From: Sedimentisphaerales bacterium
GTDB lineage: Bacteria; Planctomycetota; Phycisphaerae; Sedimentisphaerales; Anaerobacaceae
NCBI GenBank assembly: GCA_016927855.1
Contig: JAFGLV010000049.1
Span: forward strand, 1 to 64,000
Reading direction: 5' to 3'
DNA: 64,000 nucleotides
Both the position numbers and the translations under genes were made by a program. The notes beneath the pieces are model-generated. The model made no database searches. It was not told the DNA's origin and worked only from the letters and a program-made list of their open reading frames with translations. This document shows, piece by piece, positions 1,363 through 29,538 of the stretch; within the stretch, counting starts at the first letter, position 1; each line of letters opens with the position of its first letter.

Positions 1363-1393
1363 TTATTATTCCTTTCGTATGCTGTTTTCTCTC

Positions 1394-3784: not shown

Positions 3785-3814
3785 CCTTCTCCTTCGGTCA
3801 TAGTTCGATACTTG

Positions 3815-6283
3815 TCATTCGTATCTCAGCGCTTCCATAGGATCGGTCCTGGCCGCCCGGCGAGCGGGGAGGTAGCTGGCCAACAAGGCTACGGCCGCCA
3901 ATAGCAGCGCCACGCATGCGAATGTCGCTGGGTCGGTGGGGCTGACATCGTACAGGAGGCTTGCCACCACGCGTGTCGCGATCAGGGCGCCGGCCAGACC
4001 GGCCGCCAATCCAATCGCTGTGAGCTTAATCCCCTGGCGCAGCACCGTTCTCAGCACGTCCGCACGGCAGGCGCCGAGGGCCATGCGAATGCCGATTTCG
4101 TGTGTACGCCGGGAGACGGCATAGACCGTGGTGCCATAGACTCCGACGCCGGCCAATACTAACGCCAACGTGCTGAAGGCGCTGAGGAACAGCATGTTGA
4201 ACTGTTCCGACGAAAACACCTCTGCGATCTGCTCTTCGACGGGCGTGATGTCACCGACCACAGCGCCTTGGGCTGCCGCCAAGACCTGTTCTCGAATGGC
4301 GTCTGTCAGGGCCTTGGGGTTCGCTGCCGTGCGCACCATCAGCTCGATTTCGGGAGAGCAGCCGCTTTGAAGGTAGGCAGTGTAGATCTCCGGCTCGTCC
4401 GCGCCGTATCGAGTGTGCCAAACGTTACCGACGACACCGACAACTTGATACACGGTCAATTCGGAATCCCTGCCGTCGTGAATGAGGGACTTGCCGATGG
4501 GATTGGCGTTGGGCCAGAAGCGTCGCGCGGCCGCTTCATTGATGATTGCCACGGGTGCGGTCGTCTTGCTGTCGTGCTCCGTGAAGCATCTTCCCCGCAA
4601 GAGTGGTATCTGCAACAGGCGGAAGTAGTTGGGAAAGACGTCTGTTTGAGGGAGGCCCACGCCCTCCTCATCGAGTCGATGTCCCTCGATGCGGAAGGCT
4701 GGCGTGCTGAAACTACCCGTGATCGGACTATAGCTGGCGATGGTGACATCCCGCACGCCGGGCAGGGCCCGTGTCCGCCTCACGGCGTCTTTGAAGGCAG
4801 CGAGACGCCGTTGGGGCTCGGGAGCATGCATCCAGTCGAAGGCAACCCCTGCGGTCACGACGTTGTGCGTATTGAACCGGGGGTCGATCTGCTGGGTCCG
4901 CACGTAGCTGTTGACCAGCAAGCCGGCGCCGACCAGGAGCACAAAAGCAATGGCGATATCGGCACTTACCAGCAGCGTGCGCAAGCTGTGAAACCGCGGG
5001 GTCTGACTGGCCGTGCGACTCGTGGACAACGACTGATTCAGATTCGTCCTGGAGGCCCCGAGAGCGGGCAACAGCCCGAACACTCCGCACGTTAGCAGCG
5101 AGATCCCCAAGACGTAGAGCAGGCAGCGCGTATCCATCCGCACTTCGACGAACCAGGGGATCGCCCCCCACGTGTCGGGACCCAAGTACCAAGGGATCGA
5201 ACGCCCACGCAGCGCTGAGAGGATGCTCAGACACCAGTGGGCGAGTATGACGCCGAGCAGACCGCCCAGAAGGGCAAGGAGCATACTTTCTGTGAACAAC
5301 TGCCGAATCAGGCGGCCCCGGTGCGCTCCGATGGCGGCCCGGACGGCAAGCTCTCTTTCCCGGGTTGCAGAGCGAGCGATCAGCAGGCTCGTTATGTGGA
5401 GACATGCAATCAGCAGCACCGCGACGACGATCCCCAGCAAGACCATCAGCGTGCGCGGTTTGCCGAAGTCGGCCGCATAGCGGGCGTACGCCTCGCTCAT
5501 CGGAACGACCTTTATGCCTCGATTGGCATTTGTCTCCGGGTAGCTCTGGGCCAGGTGTTCGGCGATCAGGCCCATCTCTGCCTGTGCCTGTGTGATGGTA
5601 CTGTCGGGCTTCAGGCGTGCTATCGCCTGCAAGCCCCGGTTGTCCCGATTTGTGTCACCGGCGTCGTTCACCGCCAGAGGCATCCATACCCCGCACGCTA
5701 TCGGCTGGAAGATCCACCGGAACCCTTCGGGCAGGACGCCAACCACGGTGTATACTTGATTGCTTAGCGTCATCGTCTTGCCTATGACGTTCGGGTCGCC
5801 ACCGAACCAGTGCTGCCAATGGTCGTGGCTGAGAACCGCGACCGGCGCGCCACTTGCCGCGTATTCCTCCGGCAGGAAGGTCCGGCCCATTGCCGGTGTT
5901 GCGCCCAGGAGGGAGAAGAACCCCTCCGAAACGAGGAAGCCCCGAGCGTACTCGGTCCGATTGCCGGCCCGCACGATGCCATTCCATTGCTTGGCACCGA
6001 CAAGCTGCTCGAAGGCGTGACTTCGCTCGCGCCAGTCTTTGAACCCGGCCAGTGAAGTGAAACTGCGATCGGCTCTTTCCGGGTTCCAGGTCTCATAGAG
6101 GCACACGAGACTGTCCGGATCTTTGTAGGGGCAAGGGCGCAGCATGGCCGCGTCCACCACGCTGAGCATGACCGTTGTGGCGCCAATGCCGACCGCCAGA
6201 ATGACGACCACGACTGCCGTGAAGCCGGGACTTTGTGCGAGCACTCGTAAGCCGTATCGGATGTCTTGCCACAGTGCGGCCAT
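3815..6283 (-). CDS. ADOP/MacB-like ABC permease (822 aa)
   Basis: This is the first of three tandem ADOP permeases. The N-terminus MAALWQDIRYGLRVLAQSPGF is the archetypal ADOP start. Two MacB periplasmic core domains alternate with two FtsX blocks (SATRERELAVRAAIGAHR and SRRTHEIGIRMALGACR), and the C-terminus is ARTDPMEALRYE. ATG 6283 follows GGGAGACG at good spacing. It starts 64 nt after the adaptor gene stop (6348), so it is almost certainly cotranscribed with it. Its codons are markedly more GC-rich than those of the two copies downstream, so the three copies may differ in age or origin. No ATP-binding subunit is encoded between these genes; it may lie beyond base 1 or elsewhere in the genome. 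Confidence 0.94.
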   Translation of the reverse strand: MAALWQDIRYGLRVLAQSPGFTAVVVVILAVGIGATTVMLSVVDAAMLRPCPYKDPDSLVCLYETWNPERADRSFTSLAGFKDWRERSHAFEQLVGAKQWNGIVRAGNRTEYARGFLVSEGFFSLLGATPAMGRTFLPEEYAASGAPVAVLSHDHWQHWFGGDPNVIGKTMTLSNQVYTVVGVLPEGFRWIFQPIACGVWMPLAVNDAGDTNRDNRGLQAIARLKPDSTITQAQAEMGLIAEHLAQSYPETNANRGIKVVPMSEAYARYAADFGKPRTLMVLLGIVVAVLLIACLHITSLLIARSATRERELAVRAAIGAHRGRLIRQLFTESMLLALLGGLLGVILAHWCLSILSALRGRSIPWYLGPDTWGAIPWFVEVRMDTRCLLYVLGISLLTCGVFGLLPALGASRTNLNQSLSTSRTASQTPRFHSLRTLLVSADIAIAFVLLVGAGLLVNSYVRTQQIDPRFNTHNVVTAGVAFDWMHAPEPQRRLAAFKDAVRRTRALPGVRDVTIASYSPITGSFSTPAFRIEGHRLDEEGVGLPQTDVFPNYFRLLQIPLLRGRCFTEHDSKTTAPVAIINEAAARRFWPNANPIGKSLIHDGRDSELTVYQVVGVVGNVWHTRYGADEPEIYTAYLQSGCSPEIELMVRTAANPKALTDAIREQVLAAAQGAVVGDITPVEEQIAEVFSSEQFNMLFLSAFSTLALVLAGVGVYGTTVYAVSRRTHEIGIRMALGACRADVLRTVLRQGIKLTAIGLAAGLAGALIATRVVASLLYDVSPTDPATFACVALLLAAVALLASYLPARRAARTDPMEALRYE

Positions 6284-11260: not shown

Positions 11261-12193
11261 CTACCGCGAGCCGAGTTCCAGCCGCCGGGTGGACTGGCGA
11301 TACTGTCTGGGCGTCGCACCCATCCTCTTCTTGAACTGCCGGTGGAAGTAGTAGACGTTGGCGAAGCCGACGCGCTGGGCGATCTCGTAGCAGCGCAGCG
11401 ACGTGAAACGCAACAGCCTCCGCGCCGCTTCGAACCGCAGGTCCTGCTGATAGGCCAGCGGGGAAACGCGAAAGGACCGCTTGAAGGTCCGAAAAAGATG
11501 ACCCTTGGAACAGTGGGACATTGAGGCCAGGTCTTCAGCACTGATGGCTTCGGCATAATGTTCGTCAATGTATTGCCTGACGCGAAGGATGGGGTGGTTC
11601 TGGCCTACGGTGGCGCCTGGGACGGCCTCGGTGTAGCAGTGGGCGGTGATGACATCGAACACGTTGGCCAGAGCGCGGCAGGCATAGTAATCGGACATCG
11701 CCGAAGGGCTCTGAAGATAGTCCACGATCTGGATCATGATGATCACCAGCTCCTGGGTGACGTCCCGAGGCAGGTGGGGCGCGTCGTGGAGATGGCCTGC
11801 GGTCCCGGTGTAGGCATTCAGAATCTGCACAAACGGCAATGTCAGCGCCTTTCCGCTCTGGGTGGTGAAGGAAAAGGTGATCTCGGAATATACACTGGAG
11901 CGGCGCACGCTGACGAAGTCATGGGGTTGGCCGGGCGAGACGATAACGAGCATGCCGGGCTCGGCCTGGTATTGGCGACCGCACTTGACGTACGAGCCGG
12001 AAGATTGCGTATAAAGCACGATATGGTAGAGATCGTGCGTGTGTTCGTGAAACGTCCTGACGTCCCCGACCGGGCGGTCCTGATCGATCGCCGCGTGCAG
12101 AAAGGTCGGGTAGTATGCCTGGCCCTCATGGAGAATCATCAGGGTCTGGGGAGTGCCCTCATGGCGCGGTTGAGTCTGGAGAAACCGTCGCAT
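11261..12193 (-). CDS. AraC-family transcriptional regulator (310 aa)
   Basis: The N-terminal cupin/jelly-roll ligand domain (about 15-170) has the histidine-rich strand FHEHTHDLYHIVLY and GMLVIVSPGQPHDF, typical of sugar-binding AraC_binding domains. The C-terminal double HTH (about 205-305) has DLASMSHCSKGHLFRTFKR and the family signature EIAQRVGFANVYYFHRQFKK with MGATPRQYR. It is probably a sugar-responsive activator. Just upstream of its start, reading away from it, is a direct-repeat operator with 21-bp spacing, repeated 440 bp further on. The divergent targets are the 12435 ORF and the secreted protein at 12903. The ligand is unknown; neighbouring secreted carbohydrate-binding proteins suggest a polysaccharide breakdown product. 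Confidence 0.93.
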   Translation of the reverse strand: MRRFLQTQPRHEGTPQTLMILHEGQAYYPTFLHAAIDQDRPVGDVRTFHEHTHDLYHIVLYTQSSGSYVKCGRQYQAEPGMLVIVSPGQPHDFVSVRRSSVYSEITFSFTTQSGKALTLPFVQILNAYTGTAGHLHDAPHLPRDVTQELVIIMIQIVDYLQSPSAMSDYYACRALANVFDVITAHCYTEAVPGATVGQNHPILRVRQYIDEHYAEAISAEDLASMSHCSKGHLFRTFKRSFRVSPLAYQQDLRFEAARRLLRFTSLRCYEIAQRVGFANVYYFHRQFKKRMGATPRQYRQSTRRLELGSR

Positions 12194-12902: not shown

Positions 12903-15653
12903 ATGAAGAACGCAACAGGGTGTGTGGTTTTGTGTTTGCTGGCTTGGTTTGGCACCGCGCAGGCTCAGAGCCTGAAGATCGACTTCGGTGTAACCGGCAG
13001 CCCCGTGGAAACCGATTTTCAGGCCTATACCGCAACCCACGAGGTGGCCAACACGTTTACGCCCCAATCGTTCGAGGCATTTGGCACCACGATTACGGTG
13101 GCCCTGACATGGCCGAGTGGTCCCGAGAATACGGCGATGCAGATGTTTGACCGGACGACCGATGGTCGGTACGCCTACACCGGCGAGCACGGCGACCTCC
13201 TGCGAGACTGGACCGGCACGGATGGTCGCGTGGCCAATGCCAATCCCTTGGTCTTGACTCTGAGCGGTCTGCCCAAGGGGAACTACTCCTGGTTGTCCTA
13301 TCACCATGACGGAATAGATCAAACCGGTGTGTTTTCCGCGACGGTTCACGGCGGAGCAGGTACGGTCACCACCGCGGACCTGCCCATTACGAATTCAGCG
13401 GGAGGGGACAACATCACTGACTTTGCGTCCGTTGCCACGTTCGCGACGGAGTTTACGAGCAACGGTCAAGATGACGTGGTCTTTGAGTTCACGCTCACCT
13501 CTTCCTCGGCTACCTTGACCACCGCTTTCTTTGTAATGAATGGTCTTGAGATTGAGTTACTGTCCGCTCTGAACGTGGCTCAAAACCCCAACCCGAGCGA
13601 TGGGCAGACCGATGTCTCTCGCGATATCGTGCTGAGCTGGACGCCTATGGACGTCAGCGTGACCCATGACGTGTATTTCGGGCAGAGCCGGGAGGATGTC
13701 AACGCCGCCGGCCCTTCTGGCGCCGCAGGTGTTCACGTCAGTCCGGGTCAGGATGCCAATCTGTTCGATCCCGGACGGCTGGAATTTGGCACAACCTATT
13801 ATTGGCGTGTCGATGAAGTCAACGCAACGCCGGACAAAACTGTCTTCAAAGGCGATGTGTGGAGCTTCACAATCGAGCCACTCTACTATACGGTCGAGGA
13901 TGTCACGGCGATAGTGTCAGTGCCCACCGCCGCCGGGTCGGGCGGACCCGAGGTCATCGTCGATGGCTCCGGCCTGATCGACGGCTTGCACGGCACCGTA
14001 GACGGTACCATGTGGTCGGGCAAGGGAGCTGAAGGCGATCCGGTCTGGCTGCAATTCGATTTCGACCGCGTCTACAAGCTTTATGGAATGCTCGTCTGGA
14101 ACTACAACGGCCAGTTCGAGTACATCCTTGGCTTCGGCCTCAAAGACGTGACCATCGAGTATGCCACGGAGCCGAACGAGTGGATAACTCTCGACGATTA
14201 CGAATTGACCAGGGGTACCAACCTGCCCGACTATGCCGGCCAGCAGATTGACTTGGGCGGCCTGGCGGCGCGTTCGATCCGGATCAACGTCAACAGCACC
14301 CACTCCGGCGGTCTGCAAACAGGTCTCAGCGAGATCCGGTTCCTGTACAAGCCGGTGGTCGCCAGCGAGCCTCAGCCGGCTGACGGTCAGACCGAGGTCG
14401 ATATCAACACCACGCTGACCTGGCGGCCTGGGCGCGAAGCGGCCTCGCACCAGGTTCATCTTGGCGCCGACAGCAATGCGGTGGCCGACGGTGCCGCCTT
14501 GCTCGATACCGTCGCGGCCAACGCCTACGCGCTGCCGACGCTTGACCTGGGGACGACCTACTACTGGAAGATCGTCGAAGTCAACGAGGCCGAGACACCT
14601 GCGACCTGGGCAAGCGATGTCTGGAGCTTCTCCACGCCGGAGTACTTTGTGGTCGACGACTTTGAGGATTATACCGACGACACCGGCGAAGAGATATTCT
14701 CGACTTGGGCGGATGGCTACAACGACAACAGCAACGGCTCACAGGTCGGCCACGATACCCCGCCTTACGCCGAAGAGACGATCGTCCACAGCGGCGGCCA
14801 GGCTATGCCTCTGCGTTACGGCCAGGACGGCGCGACAACCTCCGAGGCCACCATGACTCTGCCTGTCGCAGAAGACTGGGCACGCGGCGGCGCGACCACG
14901 CTGGTCGTGCATTTCTACGGCGACATCAGCAACTCGCCCGTGCAGCTCTACGTCAAGATCAACGGCACAAAGGTCCAGTACCACGACAACAGTGCATTGA
15001 CGAAACCATGGTGGACCCAGTGGAATATCGATCTGGCATCCATTCCTGGCGGCGTGAAGGCGGTCGGTGCGCTGGCCATCGGTGTTTCCGGATCGGGCAC
15101 GGGTACGCTGTATGTCGACGATATCCGACTGTACAAATCCGCTCCTGCCGGGGCAACAGAGCAGTTGTGGACAGAGGCGGAGTCGGCGACAGCGCTGCCG
15201 GCGCCGTGGACGACGACGGATGAGCCTCTGGCGTCGGGCGGCAAGTACGTCATGGCGCCGTCGACGGCTACGGCCAGCACCACGAACCCGTCAACGACCG
15301 ACGTTGCCACCTATACCTTCACCGTAGCCGGCGGCCAATACAGACTCTGGTTCCGCCTCGGTCCTGTCATTGGCTATGACAACGACTCGTTCTGGGTGCG
15401 CATCGCGGATGCGACGTCGATGGATCCGACGGGTAATGCGGACAATCCAGGCTGGGTAAGGGTCAACGGTTTGGCCGGTCAGGCCGGCGCTGATACCTGG
15501 CATTGGGGCTGGGTATGGGATGACGAGCACGGGAGTCAGCAAGTAACGTTCACACTCCCGGCCGGTACGCATACCTTGGAGGTCAGTTACCGGGAACTCG
15601 AAGTCCCGCTGGACTTGATCCTTATCACCAACGACCTGGAACTGCAACGCTGA
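12903..15653 (+). CDS. Large secreted multidomain carbohydrate-binding-type protein (916 aa)
   Basis: Signal peptide cleaved after GTAQA (residue 21). An N-terminal domain (about 23-215, starting LKIDFGVTGSPVE and including DWTGTD.RV and YHHDGIDQTGVF) is shared with the protein at 16004. Next are a fibronectin-like module (about 220-325, ending YYWRVDEVN), a discoidin/F5-8-type C module (about 330-480), a second fibronectin-like module (about 485-580, ending YYWKIVEVNE), a jelly-roll domain starting EYFVVDDFEDY (about 582-755), and a C-terminal beta domain (about 760-916). No catalytic domain is recognisable, so a binding or surface role is inferred. Start ATG 12903 follows AAGGAAAGGAG. It is probably AraC-regulated through 12644-12699. 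Confidence 0.88.
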   Translation: MKNATGCVVLCLLAWFGTAQAQSLKIDFGVTGSPVETDFQAYTATHEVANTFTPQSFEAFGTTITVALTWPSGPENTAMQMFDRTTDGRYAYTGEHGDLLRDWTGTDGRVANANPLVLTLSGLPKGNYSWLSYHHDGIDQTGVFSATVHGGAGTVTTADLPITNSAGGDNITDFASVATFATEFTSNGQDDVVFEFTLTSSSATLTTAFFVMNGLEIELLSALNVAQNPNPSDGQTDVSRDIVLSWTPMDVSVTHDVYFGQSREDVNAAGPSGAAGVHVSPGQDANLFDPGRLEFGTTYYWRVDEVNATPDKTVFKGDVWSFTIEPLYYTVEDVTAIVSVPTAAGSGGPEVIVDGSGLIDGLHGTVDGTMWSGKGAEGDPVWLQFDFDRVYKLYGMLVWNYNGQFEYILGFGLKDVTIEYATEPNEWITLDDYELTRGTNLPDYAGQQIDLGGLAARSIRINVNSTHSGGLQTGLSEIRFLYKPVVASEPQPADGQTEVDINTTLTWRPGREAASHQVHLGADSNAVADGAALLDTVAANAYALPTLDLGTTYYWKIVEVNEAETPATWASDVWSFSTPEYFVVDDFEDYTDDTGEEIFSTWADGYNDNSNGSQVGHDTPPYAEETIVHSGGQAMPLRYGQDGATTSEATMTLPVAEDWARGGATTLVVHFYGDISNSPVQLYVKINGTKVQYHDNSALTKPWWTQWNIDLASIPGGVKAVGALAIGVSGSGTGTLYVDDIRLYKSAPAGATEQLWTEAESATALPAPWTTTDEPLASGGKYVMAPSTATASTTNPSTTDVATYTFTVAGGQYRLWFRLGPVIGYDNDSFWVRIADATSMDPTGNADNPGWVRVNGLAGQAGADTWHWGWVWDDEHGSQQVTFTLPAGTHTLEVSYRELEVPLDLILITNDLELQR

Positions 15654-15662
15654 GAAACGCAT

Positions 15663-15889
15663 CTGCCCACCGCGACGTGGGTCAACGACGACCAGTGGCA
15701 TCGCGTGGCGATGACGACGGAGGTTCCGACCAGCCGATGGCGAAATTGAGCATGGGTGTCCTGAGAGACGAAGACCTGGTGCGCTATTGGCCCGGCGCGC
15801 TCGACGAGGCCTATCTTTACACGCGTCCGCTGTCGCAAGCGGAGGTCGCGTGGCTGGCCGGACGGACGCAGCCGTTCAATACGCCGTGA
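15663..15889 (+). pseudogene. LamG/concanavalin-like domain remnant, frameshifted
   Basis: In one frame 15663-15749 reads LPTATWVNDDQWHRVAMTT then hits a stop. In another frame 15757-15889 reads GVLRDEDLVRYWPGALDEAY, then YLYTRPLSQAEVAWLAG. Together these are the central strand and C-terminal end of a LamG-type (concanavalin-like) domain (W.DDQWH.VA.T ... G.LDE..LY.R.LS.AE). The middle is degraded and the frame is broken. It is probably the tail of a lost gene or of an ancestor of the 12903 protein. Confidence 0.65.
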
Positions 15890-16003
15890 CTCGGCGCGTC
15901 TCTGTATTGAGTTCTTCATTGAAGTTCTGGCGGGGCTCATGTTCACCCGGACATGAGCCTCGCTGTTATCTGGCGGGACCGCCGACAGGCGGAATCCTCG
16001 AAC

Positions 16004-19000
16004 ATGAGCGCGAATGCGATTTACCGTCAATTGACATTTCTGCTGCTTTTCGTCGCGTCCGCAAACGGCGCCCTGAGGATTGACTTCACTCAGACCACTG
16101 GCCCGGTGGAGCTGGGCTATCAGGGCTACTTCGCCGATCATGAATCGGCCGCGACGTTTACCCAGCAGTACTACAGTGCTTTCGGCACGACGGTCGCCGT
16201 GGTACCGGTTTGGCCCGCCAACCCCGCCGGCCAGGCCATGCAGATGATCGACCGGTCTTCAGGCTCCAGTCTCCTGACCGACTGGATCGGTACGGATGCG
16301 CGCGTGCCGAGCGCCGACCCGCTGGTTCTGGTTGTCAGCGGCCTGCTGGCGGGCAGCTTCTGGTGGACCTCGTATCACCACGATCCTCAAGACCAGACGG
16401 GTCTGTTCGATGTGACTGTGACCGATGCGGCCGGCTCGGTGACGACGAAGGCCGTTGATATCTCCAACGGCGCTCTCAACTTGAACGCGGTGACGAAGTT
16501 CGAGACCACCATCGTGTCCGACGGCGTCAATCCGGTGTTCGTGTTCTTTGACAATCGAGGCTACGCGAACGTCTCCGAGGCTTTCTTCGTCATGAACGCC
16601 TTGGAGCTGGAGGCTCTTGATCCGTCCTACGAAGAACCACCGCCCGTCGCAGGCCCGAATCAACCGTCGGTTGCGATCAGCGAGTTCGTCGCGTCCAACG
16701 ATCGCACTCTGGCCGATGGCGACGGCAACACGCCCGATTGGATCGAGCTGTACAACGGCACATCCAGGCCGGTTTCACTGGCTGGCTGGTGTCTGACCGA
16801 CAACGCGCGCGACCTGCAGAAATGGCCTTTCCCGCCGGGGACGACGCTGCTGGCCGGTGGGTATCTCGTCGTCTTTGCCTCAGGTCACGGCACGACGGAT
16901 TACGTCGATGCCAAGGGCAGCCTCCACACGAATTTCGCCCTCGACAAGAGCGGCGAGTACCTGGCGTTGGTCGGGCCTGACGGCGTCGTCCATGAATACG
17001 CGCCGTGCTTTCCGCTCCAGCAGGCCGATGTGTCCTACGGTCTGTGGCAGGGACAACTCCAGTACTTCGCGCCGCCAACGCCGGGACGGGCCAACGCACG
17101 AGGCTTCCGCGGGCTGACCGACAGGACGAAGCACAGCCACGAGCGAGGATTCTACGACGAGGCCTTCGATCTCTGGATCTCCTGCGCCACGCCGGACGTA
17201 TCGATTCGCTATACGCTGGACGGCTCGGAGCCGACGGACCACCATGGGATTGTCTACGATCCGAGCGCACCGATTCGCATCCTGACGACAACGTGCGTAC
17301 GATCGGTGGCGTACCGGGTCGGCTGGAAATCGCCCGAGGTGACGACGCACACGTACATCTTCGTCGATGACGTCGCCCGCCAACCGGCGAATCCACCGGG
17401 CTGGCCCGGTGACTGGGGCTACGATTCCGAAGTCCGCGGCACCGTGCCGGCCGACTACGAGATGGACCCGCGCGTCGTGGACAGCGCGCTGCCGGGCTAT
17501 TCCATCCGCGACGCGCTGCTCGACGTCCCGACGCTGTCCATCTCGATGCTCCCCGACGATTTCATCGGCCAGGTGGGCGGTATCTATACGCACCCACAGA
17601 GCCGTTGGGAACGCCAGTGCTCGATCGAGTACATTCTGCCCGATGCCTCGGGAGGTTTTCAATGCGACTGTAAGATTGAGGTTCACGGTAATTCGAGCCG
17701 CCGGCCGTGGCGGATGCAGAAACACTCGATGCGCCTGACGTTCACCAGCCAGTACGGCCCGGCCAAGCTCGACTACCCTCTCTTTCCGGAATCGGACGTG
17801 CAGGAATTCAACCAGCTAGTCTTGCGCGCCAGCTTCACCGATTCCTGGGCGCTTGTCTCGTGGTCCTCGTCGCGCTACCGTCCCAATGACTCCCAGTACA
17901 TCCGCGACGTCTGGATGAAGGAGAGCTTGCGCGAGATGGGCCAGCCCTCCAGCCATGGTCGTTTCGTGCACGTCTACTTCAACGGTCTTTACTTCGGCAT
18001 CTTCAACCTCACCGAGCGGGTGGACGCAGATTTCTTCGCCGACCATCTCGGAGGTCGGCCTGAGGATTGGGAGGTGAACGAGGACCTCTCCAGTCCCGGT
18101 TCGCGCTGGCGCGCCATGGTGGCGCTCGACCCGTCCACGCCGGCCGGCTACGCGCAGATACAGGAGTACCTCGACGTGAACGACCTCGCCGATTACATGC
18201 TGCTGCACTTCTACGCCGACGCGGAGGATTGGCCGCACCACAATGGGTACGCCGCCGCCAACGCGGCCAGTGATGACGGCAAGTTCCGCTTCTTCGTCTG
18301 GGACCAGGAGATCGTTCTCGATTACCACGGTCGCGCCGCCTCGCGCATCGACAGTACCGGCGGAGTGGGCGACCTCTTCCAGAAGATGCGCACCAGTGAC
18401 CAATTCCGCCTGCTCTTTGCCGATCGGGTCTACCGGCACTGTTTCAATGGTGGCGCTCTGAGTCTGCCCGTGTCGCAGGATCGCTACCTGCGCGTCGCCA
18501 ACTGGATCGACAAAGCCATCGTCGCCGAGTCCGCACGTTGGGGCGACACCCAGATGAGCACGCCCTATGGCAACACGATCGAGCAGCCCAACCCACCGGC
18601 CGACATCAACCACAACCTCTATCCGCCCGCGCCGCATGGGCCTGACTACTATTTCACGCGCGGAGACTCGTGGGTCGTCGAGCGGGACAACATCATCGCC
18701 AATTACCTTCCCGCCATCCACAATACCGCCAACTCTTACGCTCTACTCACCGTGCTCCGCGCGAGGGCTCTCTATCCGAACATCGATCCGCCGGAGTTTC
18801 GGATTGACGGGATAAATCAGCATGGGGGTCCCGTGTTGCCCGGCGCTGTGCTGACACTGCATGCTGCTGCCGACCAGGGAGCGATCTACTACACCTTGGA
18901 CGGCAGTGACCCGCGCGTGCCACCGGTCGGCGCGCAGCCGGGCGCTTCGCATGATCTGGTCAGCGAGCAGGCGGCCAAGCGCGTTCTCGTGCCGACGGGC

Positions 19001-19648
19001 GACATCGGCTCGGCCTGGACGGGCGGCACGCCCTATGACGATGCCGGCTGGCTTTCCGGCACGGGCGGCGTGGGATACGAGATGTCGTCGGGCTACGAAT
19101 CACTCATCGGCATTGACGTGGGGCCGCCAATGTACAGCGTCAGCACGAGTTGCTACCTTCGCATCCCGTTCACCATCACCGCCCAAGACCTGCGGGACCT
19201 GGGCAGCCTGGCGCTGGACGTGCGATACGACGATGGCTTCGTCGCCTACATCAACGGTGTCGAGGTGTGCCGCGGCACATTCGCCGGCACGCCTCGCTGG
19301 GACTCCGCTGCCGACGGTAGTCACTCGGACGTGGATGCGGTATATCCGGTCAGCTTCAACGTCACTGCCGGGATCGAGGCGCTGCGGGCAGGCGAGAACA
19401 TCCTCGCCATCCAGGGTCTGAACGCCTCCGCGACCAGTTCCGACTTCCTCATCAGCGCGGCGCTCAGCGGTCGGGAGGGCAGCCCGACCGGCCCCGGCGA
19501 TCCCAGCATCTCCCCGACCGCCGCCAGATACGTCGGTTCGATTGCCCTGACGCAAGACACGTGGGTCAAGGCCCGCGTGTTGTACAACGGTCAGTGGAGC
19601 GCCCTGCACGAAGCAGTCTATTCGGTAGACGCTCATCCTGAACCGTGA
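16004..19648 (+). CDS. Secreted CotH-kinase-like protein with lamin-tail domain (1214 aa)
   Basis: The signal peptide ends near VASANGA. The N-terminal domain (about 25-215) is homologous to that of 12903 (DWIGTDARV, YHHDPQDQTGLF). A lamin-tail domain follows (about 225-350; ISEFVASNDRTLADGDG, WIELYNGT, GWCLTD). A chitobiase-like module YTLDGSEPT sits near residue 410, a CotH-type domain (about 500-880; KIEVHGNSSRRPW, HVYFNGLYFGIFNLTERVD, FFVWDQEIVLD), a second YTLDGSDPR module near 965, and a C-terminal beta-sandwich (about 990-1150). CotH proteins are atypical kinases that phosphorylate surface proteins; here WDQE replaces the usual acidic pair, so activity is uncertain. I preferred ATG 16004 to 15953 because it starts the signal peptide. 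Confidence 0.88.
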   Translation: MSANAIYRQLTFLLLFVASANGALRIDFTQTTGPVELGYQGYFADHESAATFTQQYYSAFGTTVAVVPVWPANPAGQAMQMIDRSSGSSLLTDWIGTDARVPSADPLVLVVSGLLAGSFWWTSYHHDPQDQTGLFDVTVTDAAGSVTTKAVDISNGALNLNAVTKFETTIVSDGVNPVFVFFDNRGYANVSEAFFVMNALELEALDPSYEEPPPVAGPNQPSVAISEFVASNDRTLADGDGNTPDWIELYNGTSRPVSLAGWCLTDNARDLQKWPFPPGTTLLAGGYLVVFASGHGTTDYVDAKGSLHTNFALDKSGEYLALVGPDGVVHEYAPCFPLQQADVSYGLWQGQLQYFAPPTPGRANARGFRGLTDRTKHSHERGFYDEAFDLWISCATPDVSIRYTLDGSEPTDHHGIVYDPSAPIRILTTTCVRSVAYRVGWKSPEVTTHTYIFVDDVARQPANPPGWPGDWGYDSEVRGTVPADYEMDPRVVDSALPGYSIRDALLDVPTLSISMLPDDFIGQVGGIYTHPQSRWERQCSIEYILPDASGGFQCDCKIEVHGNSSRRPWRMQKHSMRLTFTSQYGPAKLDYPLFPESDVQEFNQLVLRASFTDSWALVSWSSSRYRPNDSQYIRDVWMKESLREMGQPSSHGRFVHVYFNGLYFGIFNLTERVDADFFADHLGGRPEDWEVNEDLSSPGSRWRAMVALDPSTPAGYAQIQEYLDVNDLADYMLLHFYADAEDWPHHNGYAAANAASDDGKFRFFVWDQEIVLDYHGRAASRIDSTGGVGDLFQKMRTSDQFRLLFADRVYRHCFNGGALSLPVSQDRYLRVANWIDKAIVAESARWGDTQMSTPYGNTIEQPNPPADINHNLYPPAPHGPDYYFTRGDSWVVERDNIIANYLPAIHNTANSYALLTVLRARALYPNIDPPEFRIDGINQHGGPVLPGAVLTLHAAADQGAIYYTLDGSDPRVPPVGAQPGASHDLVSEQAAKRVLVPTGDIGSAWTGGTPYDDAGWLSGTGGVGYEMSSGYESLIGIDVGPPMYSVSTSCYLRIPFTITAQDLRDLGSLALDVRYDDGFVAYINGVEVCRGTFAGTPRWDSAADGSHSDVDAVYPVSFNVTAGIEALRAGENILAIQGLNASATSSDFLISAALSGREGSPTGPGDPSISPTAARYVGSIALTQDTWVKARVLYNGQWSALHEAVYSVDAHPEP

Positions 19649-19702: not shown

Positions 19703-20461
19703 ATGAACGTCTTTTCACTTGCCGATGACAGAGCGATCGTTACCGGCGGCGGGTCAGGCTTGGGCGCCGCCATCGCAGAATGTCTGGTCAGCGCTCGTGC
19801 GCGGGTGCTGATTTGCGGCCGCCACGAGGATGCACTGCGCCGGACCTGCGCACGCTTGGGCGCACGGACTTCGTATCTCGTGCATGACGTCACCGATGTT
19901 GCCCGGTCGGATCGGCTGATGGAGGCCGCGGCCGGCAAGAACGGCGGGCCGGCCACCATCCTCATCAACAACGCCGGCATCCACTTGCGAAAGCCTGCGG
20001 TGGACGAGAGTCCGGACGAGTTGCGACAGTTGTTCGACACGCACGTACTTGGGGCAACATCCCTGGCGCGTGCGGTAGCACCGAGCATGATCGAGCAGGG
20101 CAAGGGGTCTATCGTTTTCATCACCTCGATGGCGGCGCTCTTCGGCATCCCGCAAGTCGCGGCGTATTCGGCCGCCAAGTCGGCGCTGCTCGGGCTCGTC
20201 CGCGCGCTGGCGGTGGAATGGTCGCCGCACGGCGTACGCGTCAACGCCATCGCTCCCGGCTGGATCGACACACCCATGTTGCACCGTACCGTGGACACCG
20301 ATCCCCACCGCAAGAGTAAGATACTCGCACGAACGCCTCTGGGCCGGTTCGGGGAGCCGAGCGACGTCGGCTGGGCAGCGGTCTACCTGTGTTCGCCACA
20401 GGCCAAATTCGTGACCGGCCAGCAATTGGTCGTTGATGGCGGCGTGAGCATAGGATTCTGA
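19703..20461 (+). CDS. SDR oxidoreductase, probable fructuronate/mannonate reductase (252 aa)
   Basis: Classical short-chain dehydrogenase: nucleotide-binding TGGGSGLG (residues 15-22), NNAG near 90, catalytic Ser in ITSMAALFG and YSAAK, and a C-terminal VDGG. It overlaps the start of uxuA by the TGATG arrangement at 20459-20463, so the two are translationally coupled. In Bacillus subtilis the mannonate oxidoreductase UxuB/YjmF is also an SDR, so reduction of fructuronate to mannonate before UxuA is the best guess. Sequence alone does not fix the substrate. Confidence 0.9.
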   Translation: MNVFSLADDRAIVTGGGSGLGAAIAECLVSARARVLICGRHEDALRRTCARLGARTSYLVHDVTDVARSDRLMEAAAGKNGGPATILINNAGIHLRKPAVDESPDELRQLFDTHVLGATSLARAVAPSMIEQGKGSIVFITSMAALFGIPQVAAYSAAKSALLGLVRALAVEWSPHGVRVNAIAPGWIDTPMLHRTVDTDPHRKSKILARTPLGRFGEPSDVGWAAVYLCSPQAKFVTGQQLVVDGGVSIGF

Positions 20462-21525
20462 TGAAGATCGGACTGGGACTCTATCGGCACCAGCTCAACC
20501 GCGAGCACTATGACTTTGCCCGGCAGTGCGGCGCCACGCATCTGGTCGTACACCTCGTCGATTACTTCCAGCAAGGACGACACAATCCCGGCGACAACCA
20601 GCCCACCGGTGGCAGCGCCGGTTGGGGACGCGCCGGAGACGCCGACCGGCTGTGGACCGTCGAGGAGCTTGCCTCCCTCAAACGCAATATCAACGCGGCC
20701 GGGCTCGAACTCGAAGCCGTCGAGAATCTCGACCCGGCCCACTGGCACGACGTTCTGCTCGACGGGCCGAAGAAGGCCGAGCAGCTCGAGAATGTCAAGA
20801 CGATCCTGCGCCGTCTGGGCCAGGTAGGCATCCCGGTGATGGGCTACAACTTCAGCATCGCCGGCGTCGCCGGCCGCGTAATCGGTCGGTTCGCGCGGGG
20901 AAATGCGCTCTCTGTCGGCATGGATGGCGCCGACGACGCGCCCATCCCGCAGGGCATGGTCTGGAACATGGTCTACGATCCCGGTGCTCCGCCAGGGGTC
21001 CTTCCCGAGATCAGCGACGACGAGCTCTGGCGGCGAGTGGAGGGCTTTCTCAAGGCAGTGCTACCCGTTGCGGAGGAGGCAGGCGTCACGCTGGCGGCGC
21101 ATCCTGACGATCCGCCGGTGTCGCGCCTGCGCCGTCAGCCCCGTCTGGTGTACCAGCCTCGCATGTACCAGCGCCTGATCGATATCGACCCGAGGCCCGC
21201 TAACAGGCTCGAATTCTGCATCGGTACGCTCGCGGAGATGACCGAAGGAGACCTCTACGACGCCGTCGAGCAGTATAGCCGCCAGCGCCGAATAGCCTAC
21301 GTGCATCTGCGTAATATCGCCGGCAAGGCGCCGCACTATCGCGAGACTTTCATTGACGACGGCGACGTAGACATCGTGCGAGTCCTGAGCATCCTCCATC
21401 GAAACGGATTCGACGGGGTGGTGATTCCCGACCACGCGCCTCAGATGACGTGTTCGGCGCCTTGGCACGCCGGCATGGCGCATGCGCTGGGTTTCATCGG
21501 GGCTGCGTTGAAAAGCATATCGTGA
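20461..21525 (+). CDS. uxuA: Mannonate dehydratase
   Basis: A 354-aa TIM-barrel enzyme of the UxuA family, converting D-mannonate to 2-keto-3-deoxygluconate in glucuronate catabolism. Family features: an N-terminal strand with HLVVHLVDYF-like residues, VENLDPAHWHDVLLDG, the metal/substrate motif AAHPDDPPVSRLR, FCIGTLAEM (metal-binding Cys), VHLRNI, and the C-terminal FDGVVIPDHAPQM. The length is normal for the family. It is coupled to the upstream SDR. With GH28 and GH127 genes elsewhere in the window it fits a plant or algal polysaccharide diet. Confidence 0.93.
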   Translation: MKIGLGLYRHQLNREHYDFARQCGATHLVVHLVDYFQQGRHNPGDNQPTGGSAGWGRAGDADRLWTVEELASLKRNINAAGLELEAVENLDPAHWHDVLLDGPKKAEQLENVKTILRRLGQVGIPVMGYNFSIAGVAGRVIGRFARGNALSVGMDGADDAPIPQGMVWNMVYDPGAPPGVLPEISDDELWRRVEGFLKAVLPVAEEAGVTLAAHPDDPPVSRLRRQPRLVYQPRMYQRLIDIDPRPANRLEFCIGTLAEMTEGDLYDAVEQYSRQRRIAYVHLRNIAGKAPHYRETFIDDGDVDIVRVLSILHRNGFDGVVIPDHAPQMTCSAPWHAGMAHALGFIGAALKSIS

Positions 21526-21618: not shown

Positions 21619-21640
21619 TAGGGTGGATCTTAGCCCATGC
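21619..21640 (+). repeat. TAGGxxGGAxxTTAGCCCATGC repeat, copy 1
   Basis: The 22 bases at 21619-21640 match 31048-31069 at 18 of 22 positions, both ending TTAGCCCATGC. Both lie next to gene starts. This copy contains the first ATG (21637) of the following gene, which makes that start doubtful. Confidence 0.5.
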
Positions 21641-24600
21641 TGATGACCACACACTTTGGCGGGATGTGTCTCGTGGCAAGACTGGCAGACTGTAGTCGTA
21701 GACGCAGGACGGGCTCCTCTTCGTTCGTGCGCCTGGCGGTGCTCGTAGCAGCGACGTTTGTTCTGCTCGGCTGTGCTTCTGAACCGGCCAACCAGGCACC
21801 GCCGCTGCAGGTCAATGTCTCTGAGCCCGTTCGACAGGCTCTTGTACGATTCAACCAAGGTGCGGCGCTGCTGGAGCAGTACAAGTACGTCGAGGCGGCC
21901 GAAGCATTCGAGCAGGTCCTCCAGACCGCGTCGGGTTGGACGGCAGCCAGGTTCAACCTGGGTCTGGCCTACCTGAACACGCAGGAGGAGGCCGGGGCCC
22001 AGGAGAACTTGAACAAATCCAGGGAGGCGTTCGAGTCGGTCCTTCGGGAGACCCCGGACCATCGCTACGCGCGGTTCTGCCTGGGGTTGTACTACCAGCA
22101 TATTGGCGAGCACGGCGCGGCGCTGGAGTGCTTTCGGGCCGTCCATGAAGCCGACCCCAATGACCCGCACGCTGCCTACAAGTACGCCGAGACCCTCATC
22201 AACCAGGAGCAGAGAGAGCCTGCCGCCAGGCTGCTCGAACGAATCGTCGAGCAGGATCCCGGCTTCGTCTCGGCCGTGTACCGCCTGGCCATGGTCTACC
22301 AGCGGGTGGGCCGGCGCGACGAGGCGCGCGATCTGTTCGCACGGTTCCGAGAGCTCCAGAACGCCGAGTTGACCGGCGGCACGTTCGCGGTCCTGAACGC
22401 CTATGGGAGTGTGGGCAGGTATTGTCTGGCACTTGGCGCAGACGGCCTTCCGATTCAGCCGTCTCAAGCGCCCTCGTCGCGGGTGGTCTTCTCGCCGCAG
22501 TTCAAACGGTTTTCAGAGCCGGTGTCGGCGTGGAGGGCCGGACAGGTGAGCGTGAAACTGCCCGGTGTCGCGGCCGGTGACGTGGATGCGGATGGCGACA
22601 TCGACCTTTGTATCTGCGCCCTCGGCGCTAACGGCGATACCGCGCTCTATCTCAATGATGGCAGCGGAGCATTCGAGAGAGGCCAGGTCCTGGCCGAGCA
22701 AGGCATCTGTCCGGCCCTGGGCGATGTGGACAACGATGGCGACCTCGATCTCTGGCTTGGACGCATCGGTGCCGACATGTACTTCACCAACGACGGCACG
22801 GGACATTTCACCCAGGCCGAGCTTGGCGGCGTCGCGCCGCCCGACGTCGGCACGCACAGCGCGCGTCTGGTCGACATCGACAGCGACGGCGATCTCGATC
22901 TCATGGCCTTTCACCTGACCGAAGGCTCAATTCCCAGAAACGAGCCGGGTCAGGGCGTCGCGAACAACGTGTTCAACAACAATCGCGACGGCTCCTTCGC
23001 CGATATCGCGGAGAAACTCGGTTTGACGTTGGCGACGTTCGCTGTTGCAGCTTCCGTCTGCGACGATTTCGACAACGATCGCGATCTGGATATGGTCATT
23101 TTCGCGCAGGGTGGTTCGCCTATCGGGTGGGTCAACGATCGGGTCTGGCGATATCACGCGCTGACTGCCGAAAGCATGGGGATTGCCGGCATCGAGAATG
23201 TGCTCGGCGCCACGACCGGCGATCCTGACGGCGATGGCGATCGCGACCTGCTCGTGTTCACTGAGAGCGCGGTTCATCTGTTTCTGAACACCGGCGGCTT
23301 TCGGTTTGAGCGCGATTCCGAGTTCACGCAGCGTTGCGGGCGCACCGGCGCTTCCGGCGGCCAGTTCGTCGATATCGACAACGATGGCGATCTCGACATT
23401 ATGGTCGCGGACCGGTTGCGGCCCGACGGCCGGCGCGGTCCGGCGCTGCTGGTGAACGAGTGGCCGCGACGTCGGTTCACCGGTGCGGCTGAGATGGACC
23501 CAGGCCTGCTCCTGGAGGTGCTGACATTCGACGGGTACGCCAGTTGCATCGCTGCCGATTTCACCGGCAACGGGATCTGTGACGTCTTCCTGGCGCCTGC
23601 AAACGAGGCGCCCTTCCTGGTCGAGAACGCCACGAAAGGGGGACATTGGATCCAGGTGGACCTGCAGGGCATTCAAGGCGAGGATGGCAAGTCGCGCTCG
23701 AACAACTCGGCGATCGGGGCTCGCGTCGATGTCAAGGCGGGCTTGATCTCGCAGCAGCACGTGGTCGGTGTTCCTTCGGGGCCGGTGGCGTCGCCACCAC
23801 TGCGGGTTCACGCCGGGTTGGGGGCGCAGACGCAGGTGGATTGGCTGCGCATCACTTGGCCGGACGCGGTCCTGCAGGCAGAGCTTGAATTGCCTGCCGA
23901 TCAGACCGTGAAGATTGCGGAGGTTCAGCGAAAGGTCTCTTCCTGCCCGCACCTGTTTGCATGGAACGGCTCACATATCGAGTTCGTGTCCGACTTCGGC
24001 GGCATGGGCGGGCTGGGCTATCTCGTTGCTCCCGGCACTTACGCGCCGCCCGACTCGACGGAGTACGTCCCGGTTCCGAACCTCGCGCCGCGCAACGGGG
24101 AATATCTCCTTCAGGTCGTCGAACCGCTCGAAGAAATCGTCTACATGGATGAAGTCAAGCTGCTGGCGGTCGATCATCCCGCTGGCACGACGGTCTATCC
24201 CAACGAGATGATGGCGGTCAACGCACCGGCGCCGGAGTTCGAGCTGTTCTGTGTCGGCGAGACCATCGAGCCGGTCCGCGCGGTCGATCATCGCGGCGCG
24301 GAGGTCACGCAGGCGATCAAGGCTGTGGATCGAGTCTACGCGGGACCGACGCAGCCGGATCCGCGCTTTGTCGGCTACGCGGAGGAGCACTTCGTCGAGT
24401 TAGATTTTGGCGAGCGTTTGTCGTCGATTTCGTCTGACGCACGTCTAATTTTGTTCCTCTATGGCTGGGTCCACTACGGTTATTCGGCCACGAATTTCGC
24501 CGCTGGCCAGGCGGGCATCGCGCTGCAGGCGCCGAGCATTTATGCCGAGCGTGAAGGCCGGTGGGTCGAGCTGTTCCATGAGGTTGGCTACCCGGCCGGC

Positions 24601-25197
24601 ATTCGGCACATGATGACACTGGACGTGACCGGCAAGCTCCTGCCGACGGATCGGCGCATTCGAATCGCCACGAACATGGAGCTCTATTGGGACCAGATCT
24701 TCGTCGCGTCGGTGCTCACCGACGCTGCACGGAGCGTGCATTCGATCGACCTAGACAGCGCCGATCTCCATTTCTTCGGTTATCCGCGAGAGTATTCACC
24801 GGACGGTCGGCACCCGAACCTGTATGACTACAGTCAGGTCGATCGGGCCTTGCCGTGGAAGACCATGCGCGGCGCGTACACGCGCTACGGTGACGTGACG
24901 ACCCTGCTGCAGGCGCCCGACGATCGGTACGTGATTATGGGACCAGGCGAAGAAATCACGCTCCACTTCCCGGCGGATACGGCAGGGCAGCCTGCGTCGG
25001 GATCCCGAAGGTCCTTCATCCTTAAGACCGATAGTTACTGCAAGGACATGGACCTGTACACCGCCTATCCGGAGACGGTCGAGCCTCTGCCTTTCCACGG
25101 CATGAGCACGTATCCGTACGAAATCGACGAGCGCTATCCCGAAGGCGAGGAACATCAGAAATACCACGTGGAATTCAACACGCGCCATATACGGTGA
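21637..25197 (+). CDS. Lipoprotein with TPR, FG-GAP/VCBS and UnbV domains (1186 aa)
   Basis: Lipoprotein signal with lipobox VLLGC. TPR units occupy about 60-250. An FG-GAP/VCBS beta-propeller (about 290-650) has calcium-binding repeats DVDADGDIDL, DVDNDGDLDL, DIDSDGDLDL and DIDNDGDLDI. An ASPIC/UnbV domain follows (about 660-760), then a ~400-residue C-terminal region of unrecognised fold with many Tyr and Pro. ATG 21637 lies inside a repeat; ATG 21664 is an alternative that keeps the signal peptide. It heads a set with 25245 and 26588. Family members are extracytoplasmic, often adhesion- or catabolism-linked, with no proven reaction. Confidence 0.88.
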   Translation: MLMTTHFGGMCLVARLADCSRRRRTGSSSFVRLAVLVAATFVLLGCASEPANQAPPLQVNVSEPVRQALVRFNQGAALLEQYKYVEAAEAFEQVLQTASGWTAARFNLGLAYLNTQEEAGAQENLNKSREAFESVLRETPDHRYARFCLGLYYQHIGEHGAALECFRAVHEADPNDPHAAYKYAETLINQEQREPAARLLERIVEQDPGFVSAVYRLAMVYQRVGRRDEARDLFARFRELQNAELTGGTFAVLNAYGSVGRYCLALGADGLPIQPSQAPSSRVVFSPQFKRFSEPVSAWRAGQVSVKLPGVAAGDVDADGDIDLCICALGANGDTALYLNDGSGAFERGQVLAEQGICPALGDVDNDGDLDLWLGRIGADMYFTNDGTGHFTQAELGGVAPPDVGTHSARLVDIDSDGDLDLMAFHLTEGSIPRNEPGQGVANNVFNNNRDGSFADIAEKLGLTLATFAVAASVCDDFDNDRDLDMVIFAQGGSPIGWVNDRVWRYHALTAESMGIAGIENVLGATTGDPDGDGDRDLLVFTESAVHLFLNTGGFRFERDSEFTQRCGRTGASGGQFVDIDNDGDLDIMVADRLRPDGRRGPALLVNEWPRRRFTGAAEMDPGLLLEVLTFDGYASCIAADFTGNGICDVFLAPANEAPFLVENATKGGHWIQVDLQGIQGEDGKSRSNNSAIGARVDVKAGLISQQHVVGVPSGPVASPPLRVHAGLGAQTQVDWLRITWPDAVLQAELELPADQTVKIAEVQRKVSSCPHLFAWNGSHIEFVSDFGGMGGLGYLVAPGTYAPPDSTEYVPVPNLAPRNGEYLLQVVEPLEEIVYMDEVKLLAVDHPAGTTVYPNEMMAVNAPAPEFELFCVGETIEPVRAVDHRGAEVTQAIKAVDRVYAGPTQPDPRFVGYAEEHFVELDFGERLSSISSDARLILFLYGWVHYGYSATNFAAGQAGIALQAPSIYAEREGRWVELFHEVGYPAGIRHMMTLDVTGKLLPTDRRIRIATNMELYWDQIFVASVLTDAARSVHSIDLDSADLHFFGYPREYSPDGRHPNLYDYSQVDRALPWKTMRGAYTRYGDVTTLLQAPDDRYVIMGPGEEITLHFPADTAGQPASGSRRSFILKTDSYCKDMDLYTAYPETVEPLPFHGMSTYPYEIDERYPEGEEHQKYHVEFNTRHIR

Positions 25198-25244
25198 GCC
25201 GATAGGGAACGGTGATAAAAGGCCCTGATTTTCCGTGGTGGACT

Positions 25245-26591
25245 ATGACAGCGAAAAGCATCTCAGCCAAAAGTCTGTGCGCCGCGAGGGCAGCGCATTT
25301 GCTGGCGGTTGCGGTCGGCTTGGGGCTGGCGTTCTGCGCCGGCGCGTTCGGCGCCGAGCCCAATGCGACCGCCGAAGAAACAAGGCTCGCGCTGTTGCTG
25401 GACGAGGAAGTCCGCTTGGCCGAGCAACTGGCCAAGGCATTTCCCCAGAGCGAAGAGCCACTGGTGATCCTGAGCCGGGTGTATGTACGACGCGGTGACA
25501 CGGACAAGGCCATCGAGTACTGGGAGAAAGCGGTGCAGATGAATCCGCGCCGGGTAGATGTATACGACCAGATGGCCAAGGTCGCGGTGCAGATGGACGA
25601 GTACGAGAAGGCCATCGAGTTGTGGAGCCGAGTCCTCCAGGTCGATCCGAACTGGCAGGGGACCCGTAACCAGATGGCCGATGCCTATATGAATCTGGGC
25701 CAGTACGAGCGCGCGATCGAAACCCTCCGTGAGGAAATCGAACGCTCCGGAGGCGATGCCGAAAGCCACTTCCGGCTCGGACAAGTCTGCCAGCACCAGC
25801 AGAAGTACGAAGAGGCCAAGGCCCATTACGAGCGCGCCGTCGGCCTGCAGAGCGACCACAGGGACGCTTGCTACGGCCTGTACATGGTGTGCGCTCGTCT
25901 CAGACTAACCGAGGAAGCGAAGCGGTATCTGACGCGTTTCCAGGAATTGAAAGAAGAGGACAAAGACGCGTTGAAGCGGTACGACGAGACCTTGCCCAGC
26001 GACCTGGACTGCGCTTACCAGAGCCTGGCGAAGCTGTGTTTCGACACGCACATGCTCCATGTCTACACGGGACAGACGCCAGTGACGGCCGACGTGCTGC
26101 GCGCGGTTGGGGCGTTGGGCAGCGATAGTCCCGTCTATCTCAAGCGTCTGGCGGAGCTGTACGCGTCGATCCAGCGCGTTCCGGAGGCTCTGACCCTGTA
26201 CCGCCGGGTCGCGCAATTGGATCCAAACGACAGGCAGGGTCAGTTGAACGTGGGTCTGTTGTCGGTCCAGATGGGTCTGCTGGGAGACGCCCAGAAGGCA
26301 TTTCAGCGGCTCATCGCCTTGGATCCCAACGAATACGTCGGCTACCAGGAACTGGCCCGCCTGTACCTGAGGGCCAAGATGAATCTGCCGGAGGCCAGAC
26401 GGCTGGCCCAGAAAGCGGTCGATCTGGAGGGCAGCGCGAGCGCGTACTACGACCTGGGCCTGGCATGTTATGCCAACGGCGACGCGACCGGGGGGCTGGC
26501 AGCGCTGAAGCGTGCGGCCGAGCTGGAACCTGAGAATTCCACGTACATCGACGCGTATCAGCTCTTCCAGAAAAGGAGCCGGGCACAGTGA
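25245..26591 (+). CDS. Secreted TPR-repeat protein (448 aa)
   Basis: The signal peptide ends near AGAFGAEP. At least eight TPR-like units follow from about residue 70 to the end (VYVRRGDTDKAIEYWEKAVQMNP, cut short here as two-helix units; similar units recur every 34 residues). TPR proteins scaffold protein complexes, and this one probably sits in the periplasm with its FG-GAP neighbours. A GTG start at 25212 is possible; ATG 25245 is preferred because it begins a compact signal peptide. Its stop overlaps the GTG start of 26588 by GTGA, so the two are coupled. Confidence 0.88.
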   Translation: MTAKSISAKSLCAARAAHLLAVAVGLGLAFCAGAFGAEPNATAEETRLALLLDEEVRLAEQLAKAFPQSEEPLVILSRVYVRRGDTDKAIEYWEKAVQMNPRRVDVYDQMAKVAVQMDEYEKAIELWSRVLQVDPNWQGTRNQMADAYMNLGQYERAIETLREEIERSGGDAESHFRLGQVCQHQQKYEEAKAHYERAVGLQSDHRDACYGLYMVCARLRLTEEAKRYLTRFQELKEEDKDALKRYDETLPSDLDCAYQSLAKLCFDTHMLHVYTGQTPVTADVLRAVGALGSDSPVYLKRLAELYASIQRVPEALTLYRRVAQLDPNDRQGQLNVGLLSVQMGLLGDAQKAFQRLIALDPNEYVGYQELARLYLRAKMNLPEARRLAQKAVDLEGSASAYYDLGLACYANGDATGGLAALKRAAELEPENSTYIDAYQLFQKRSRAQ

Positions 26592-29527: not shown

Positions 29528-29538
29528 CGCGGCCTGCT

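Follow-up and report, generated by a model that had tools for sequence, protein, structure and literature searches.

A secreted N-terminal domain of predicted malectin-like fold, absent from Pfam and NCBIfam, in Planctomycetota and Verrucomicrobiota

Introduction

Two neighbouring genes of a Sedimentisphaerales bacterium (GCA_016927855.1, contig JAFGLV010000049.1) encode secreted proteins, here A and B, that begin with the same domain and then continue in entirely different ways. A preliminary description of the window (the whole 64,000-nucleotide stretch analysed) proposed that this domain is new, that it is shuffled between proteins and that it serves surface attachment or glycan binding. 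What is the domain, how far does it extend beyond this locus and what might it do? PMC11131199 ranks Sedimentisphaerales with those Planctomycetota that have the most glycoside hydrolases and polysaccharide lyases, and several loci of this analysis belong to that order by name.

Results

The genes for A and B lie on the same (+) strand with a gap of 350 bases (Table 1), and both products have a signal-peptide-like start. They had been called giant secreted proteins; at 916 and 1214 residues they are large rather than giant. A domain of about 190 residues directly follows the signal peptide in each, and the two copies are 50% identical (E 1.5e-43 in a whole-genome search; 49% over the global alignment). 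The motifs originally quoted for it are all present, with A reading GSPVE and FQAY where B reads GPVE and YQGY. Behind the domain the architectures differ, as described: A continues with a Fn3-like/F5-8C/Fn3-like stem and a C-terminal jelly-roll-like part, B with a lamin tail domain (LTD), a CHB_HEX_C_1/Fn3_assoc domain and a CotH kinase-like region (Pfam). Neither C-terminus carries a PEP-CTERM signal (PEP motif, hydrophobic stretch and basic tail). With a two-row profile, no third copy was found in the window's genome at E ≤ 0.01. Weak extra matches in two further contigs, C41 and C38 (E 0.01–0.33), were discarded, as none passes E 0.01 with the profile; the two C41 genes are paralogs of A by their stems but have different heads, and the match at C41:20637-20807 lies inside the stem.

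Table 1. Positions and basis of the features discussed; positions are those of the window unless a locus is named.
Feature	Position	Strand	Length	Basis or remark
Divergent AraC-family regulator	11264..12193	-		Pfam HTH_18/AraC_binding; kept beside A-type genes
Protein A	12903..15653	+	916 aa	ORF and translation
Shared domain, copy A	12966..13569	+	201 aa	50% identity to copy B; AlphaFold2 model
HHD motif, copy A	13302..13310	+		His134-His135-Asp136 of A; kept in 76/76 close members
Stem of A	13611..15140	+		Common to about 38 paralogs of the window's genome
F5/8 type C (discoidin-like) domain of A	13998..14309	+		aa 366-469; PF00754, E 2.7e-8
Protein B	16004..19648	+	1214 aa	ORF, translation, Pfam
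Shared domain, copy B	16070..16624	+	185 aa	Search with copy A, alignment, two-row profile
Lamin tail domain of B	16661..16987	+		PF00932, E 1.2e-14
Chitobiase C-terminal/Fn3-associated domain of B	17147..17344	+		PF13290, PF13287
CotH kinase-like region of B, best-scoring stretch	17675..18046	+		PF08757, E 1.4e-15
Short-chain dehydrogenase (SDR)	19703..20461	+		PF13561; same order in L071/L168
UxuA-type mannonate dehydratase-like gene	20461..21525	+		PF03786; same order in L071/L168
Putative circularly permuted copies	L091:2525-3472; L089:1048-2010; L083:583-1500; L129 ORF 2098-4137

The domain proved new to the catalogues searched: none of the 57 members of our alignment (A3) matches any Pfam or NCBIfam model at E ≤ 0.01. 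A match to an existing Pfam carbohydrate-binding family, named beforehand as the result that would count against a new domain, was looked for and did not occur, the two window copies matching no Pfam model of a carbohydrate-binding module (CBM) even at E ≤ 1. The best Pfam score of the window domain was to DUF3208 (E 0.15, under that model's cut-off), and whole proteins A and B gave nothing above cut-off in NCBIfam. A PDB sequence search with the domain profile yielded no match at E ≤ 10, F5/8 type C (PF00754) matched the stem of A and not the shared domain, and tblastn of the B domain against phage and plasmid collections found nothing. In a viral structure library the best match, A0A385A154, which is without a name in the tables, spans the whole domain (TMq 0.65, E 9.6e-7). 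We found no published description of the domain, or of the head and stem repertoire reported below, in titles and abstracts, a weak absence given that most subscription journals were outside the scope of that search.

Relatives were found in 8 of 60 genomes with the two-row profile (the window's genome counted), in 28 of 161 genomes of the order with a 13-row profile (A2) and, with a 57-row profile, in 3 of 392 genomes of the phylum (again counting the window's own). For the Roseibacillus genome that is the source of locus L099 (G542; Verrucomicrobiota), the 57-row profile found relatives in 10 of 387 genomes of its phylum and 13 of 189 of its order. By these tallies the family is patchy, with most of its weight in the family to which the window belongs. 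Scanning named genome contigs yielded 73 pattern matches; 50 are relatives, and they come from 48 loci. By the names of the metagenome-assembled genomes these are mostly Planctomycetota and Verrucomicrobiota; Kiritimatiellae, Sumerlaeota, Bacteroidetes and Acidobacteriia are represented by one contig each, which may be mis-binned. Two subfamilies could be distinguished, subfamily I by the signature IDF..QTGGPVE..GY and subfamily II by VDFNS..QDGGP..Q.GW/Y, an extra loop and GTPTY; subfamily II matches the profile of the two window copies at E 1e-16 to 1e-26.

An AlphaFold2 model built on A3 (57 rows) is a beta-sandwich with a mean pLDDT of 95.1 and a pTM of 0.91. Foldseek comparison with the PDB gave CBM4-2, CBM35, CBM6, CBM22, GH101, binary-toxin receptor domains and plant malectin-like receptors as neighbours, with modest global TM-scores (0.25–0.44 by query length). 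On re-alignment with VIA, the N-terminal domain of B. subtilis YxiM came top (2o14; Z 12.7, 140 residues, rmsd 2.8), and the C-terminal domain of B. uniformis beta-glucuronidase (Z 12.6), FERONIA (Z 11.7), human malectin (9ikp; Z 10.1, 140 aligned, rmsd 2.9), CBM61 (Z 9.3) and HpiC1 (Z 9.0) were also recovered. The shared domain is thus predicted to have a malectin-like beta-sandwich fold. The strand order read from the sequence (G-x-Y-x-W-x-S-Y ending HHD, F-x-V-x-V and a final (F/M)MN-x-(F/L)-E-(L/I)), which we take to be that of malectins, agrees with this prediction. For the dorei glucuronidase, the published account, in the part considered here, gives a CBM57 assignment based on malectin.

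Kinship in sequence with malectin (PF11721) was considered and rejected: hhalign against malectins of related genomes gave a probability of 1%, no better than the controls (F5/8C 0.2, Fn3 1.6, LTD 0.4, CotH 0.3), a rejection that holds at the sensitivity of a thin profile (Neff 3.4) and with malectin row L149, which is in the wrong frame, left out. PF11721 has no match in the window's own genome; 26 of 60 relatives have one. The domain would then have malectin's fold by its model, with membership in the malectin family finding no support in the sequence.

The 76 members at E < 1e-30 all have R63, L78, G84, D86, R88, H113, H114, D115, F123 and N192 (numbered within the domain; add 21 for protein A), and H113 and N192 are the residues best kept in the 20 weaker members. 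W49, W109 and F123 are among the conserved aromatics. Loci L063-L110 were found by the patterns DL..DWIG.D or W.SYHHD, so that motif conservation there is partly forced; members from genome searches were found by profile. All 57 rows are acidic, with net charges from -6 to -34 (mean -18). In distant members the HHD varies to HHE, HHA, HND or LHD; such degenerate forms occur in L125 (ORF 1242-3476, -), L131 (ORF 205-3888, +), L118, L119, L120, L121 and L123, and this distant set (profile hits at E 1e-22 to 1e-6) hints at a larger superfamily. In two distant members the domain is followed by an apparent right-handed beta-helix, pectate-lyase-like by eye and without Pfam support.

Pfam scans of partner domains covered 24 relatives (7, 9 and 8 proteins). 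Among the partners were CotH/LTD/CHB_HEX and F5/8C with Laminin_G_3. The domain is fused to GH98 with CBM6/35 in L068, to CBM9 and Laminin_G_3 in L106 and to CBM_4_9 in L110; other CBMs or LamG also accompany it in L064, L066 and L067. Further combinations were PKD/Big_2/HpiC1-like parts (L087), a T9SS sorting tail (L085), dockerin with PEP-CTERM (L080) and TSP3 with a weak PA14 match (L090), and three of the 24 (L099, L091 and L084) had no Pfam match at 0.001. By pattern and hand count, 14 of 62 domain-bearing open reading frames, all shorter than 400 residues, consist of the domain alone with a PEP-CTERM tail. Tandem domain pairs occur inside one protein in L080, L082, L095, L099, L100 and L104, and two or three domain-bearing genes lie together in 11 of 48 loci. 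The domain is a discrete module attached to carbohydrate-active proteins, as carbohydrate-binding modules are.

The suggestion that it is shuffled between proteins held up, as a tree of 80 domain rows required at least 23 changes among four architecture classes (39.2 on average when shuffled; 3 minimum). On this tree the head of A has its nearest neighbour in the A-type head of L165 (SH-aLRT 88, 54% identity). The B domain groups, in a starred clade (97), with heads that CotH-type proteins carry in other genomes; L074, whose truncated protein is outside the architecture classes, lies in that clade too. The copies in A and B are therefore not sisters.

In each of four loci one copy has its two parts exchanged, running from about column 46-52 to the end and then directly through the first 55-110 columns. 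Halves of a PKD-like domain, read by eye, flank these copies on both sides (in L129, Pfam K319L-like_PKD at E 1.9e-4, under its cut-off). Such an arrangement is what one expects of a circularly permuted domain lodged in a loop of a second domain; the mean pLDDT of 38.4 that AlphaFold2 gave a permuted copy (A4, 3 rows) leaves sequence as the sole ground for the putative permutation.

The stem of A belongs to a much larger set. In the window's genome, 79 candidates yielded 47 matches to it at E ≤ 1e-10, of which 38 reach E < 1e-90 (one with an internal TGA), and matches at E ≤ 1e-30 occur in 56 of 89 genomes of the family. All 666 pairs among 37 stems compared match each other, with a median identity of 52%. 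The 38 heads, some of which include a few upstream residues and one of which (L232) is uncertain, sort into 21 groups that show no BLAST similarity to one another at E ≤ 1e-5; by Pfam they comprise 13 Laminin_G_3, 2 CBM9 and 2 CBM_4_9 heads, with single cases of PA14, CBM96, beta-propeller, beta-helix and others.

Of the genome's 35 own stems, 30, that of A included, form a starred own-only clade in a tree of 77 stems. Grouping the A stem with the stems of L165 and L169 was rejected (p-AU 1.1e-5), as was grouping it with seven A-type rows (p 0.0012); these constraint groups were chosen after the first tree, and the foreign stems are those most like A, so that sampling is not neutral. The head and the stem of A thus differ in history, the former tracking the locus and the latter the genome.

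The window reads AraC (-), A, B, SDR and UxuA-like, and one record, CP070782 (L071/L168), keeps this order with identities of 67% (B), 75% (AraC), 70% (SDR) and 78% (UxuA-like). There the A-type protein starts with Laminin_G_3 where A has the shared domain, and a LamG head likewise stands beside a B gene in L074. This replacement of the domain by LamG, a known lectin-type domain, at a syntenic locus is the strongest functional hint that we have. The AraC gene also lies beside an A-type gene in genomes G030, G063, G103 and G064 (71-75% identity). SDR and UxuA-like genes occur together only in L071/L168 among the 60 loci compared, of which several are the same record twice and many end early. 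A uronate-polymer ligand, which the SDR and UxuA-like neighbours could suggest, was not adopted, since the gene pair is rare and the acidic character of the domain argues against polyanionic ligands of this kind. Elsewhere in the window, a pair of large FG-GAP/ASPIC-UnbV proteins stands in a row with a TPR protein (21637-28264), and two adjacent Peripla_BP_6 proteins (branched-chain amino-acid-type receptor) lie on the - strand (28229-31020).

Discussion

The shared domain is real and forms a family that the catalogues searched lack; its fold is a known one, and its role is well supported but inferred. We consider it probable that its members are carbohydrate-binding modules without catalytic activity, built on a malectin/galactose-binding-like beta-sandwich and used as exchangeable secreted heads. 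The malectin/CBM-like predicted fold, the fusions to carbohydrate-active and carbohydrate-binding parts, and the LamG replacement favour the glycan-binding half of the earlier proposal, with direct binding itself inferred. The surface-attachment half found no specific support, as A and B carry no PEP-CTERM or other anchor that we could find, unlike the 14 stand-alone relatives. Exported behind its signal peptide, the domain would keep the remainder of the protein attached to a polysaccharide or to a glycan of the cell surface, whether that remainder is an enzyme, a CotH kinase-like part, a discoidin stem or a PEP-CTERM tail. The invariant polar cluster R63, D86, R88, H113, H114, D115 and N192, accompanied among the conserved aromatics by W49, W109 and F123, is a putative ligand or metal-ligand site. 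A and B may be co-deployed on one glycan under the divergent AraC regulator, which would imply their co-regulation.

Several observations count against the glycan-binding reading. CBM families rely on variable aromatic sites, so that an invariant charged set is unusual for one; the stand-alone domain with PEP-CTERM would be a CBM without cargo; and the neighbour HpiC1 is a reminder that proteins of CBM fold can be enzymes. Nor is a malectin-like fold proof of sugar binding, since the part of PMC6038381 cited here reports no oligosaccharide binding detected for ANXUR1 and HERCULES1, and ANXUR folds are among the structural neighbours of the shared domain. We nevertheless think it unlikely that the domain is an enzyme on a CBM-like beta-sandwich, such as a polysaccharide lyase or hydrolase, with the Arg, Asp, His-His-Asp and Asn residues as an active or metal site and the attached parts doing the binding. 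The seven charged or polar residues invariant in all 76 close members, the secreted stand-alone form and the presence of a cyclase, HpiC1, among the fold neighbours would suit such an enzyme, but the domain is usually a single copy among other ligand-binding domains, is fused to a separate GH98 catalytic domain or to CotH, forms the tandem pairs listed above and loses its intact HHD in distant members that keep the remaining profile similarity.

The clustering of domain genes, and the PEP-CTERM stand-alone genes beside CotH-type genes in L073, L067, L065 and L088, could instead point to a homotypic or protein-protein adhesion module of an extracellular matrix, in which surface PEP-CTERM copies capture neighbours bearing the domain. 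This is improbable in our judgement: neighbouring copies can differ greatly (L065 has subfamilies I and II side by side), tandem duplication predicts clustering as well, and the window's genome has no stand-alone copy. That the two window copies merely reflect a recent tandem duplication without wider meaning, as their adjacency on one strand might suggest, is very hard to credit, because the domain tree contradicts it by placing A near the L165 head and B in the CotH-type clade, and because the family is present in 28 of the order's 161 genomes.

A glycan-binding head remains our preferred reading. For the proteins that polysaccharide-degrading Planctomycetota and Verrucomicrobiota secrete, the analysis adds a domain family that Pfam and NCBIfam lack, and it supplies a defined construct and candidate site residues for testing. 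The head and stem organization is more surprising than the domain family itself. We tentatively suggest, as a possibility only, that A comes from a surface or secreted repertoire of about 38 proteins in its genome with variable heads and a constant stem: the stem would be genome-specific and kept similar within the genome by recombination, and the heads would be swappable and of at least 21 unrelated kinds. The HHD domain would be one such head and, instead of a plain lectin site, might carry a catalytic or metal site. If confirmed, this would be a bacterial polysaccharide-gripping repertoire built by head swapping.

Compared with known systems, the domain resembles malectin/CBM57 (PF11721) in predicted fold, in secretion and in being joined to carbohydrate-active parts, but none of 57 members matches in sequence and the invariant R/DxR/HHD/N signature is its own. 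The YxiM N-terminal domain, its best structural neighbour, is also an N-terminal module, but is only 16% identical and was not matched by the PDB sequence search. CBM4, CBM6, CBM35, CBM61 and other beta-sandwich CBMs are fold neighbours with equal partners and position in modular proteins, whereas the shared domain has no Pfam match to them; we know of no CBM of the CBM4, CBM6, CBM35 or CBM61 type with its polar signature. BT0996-C, a PGA-binding CBM, is the opposite in charge: it relies on a positively charged site according to PMC9843283, and the shared domain is acidic. Laminin_G_3 and other concanavalin A-like lectin domains differ from it, in that it has no Pfam match to Laminin_G_3 and its model's neighbours are malectin/CBM-like, yet they take its N-terminal place in proteins with the same stem.
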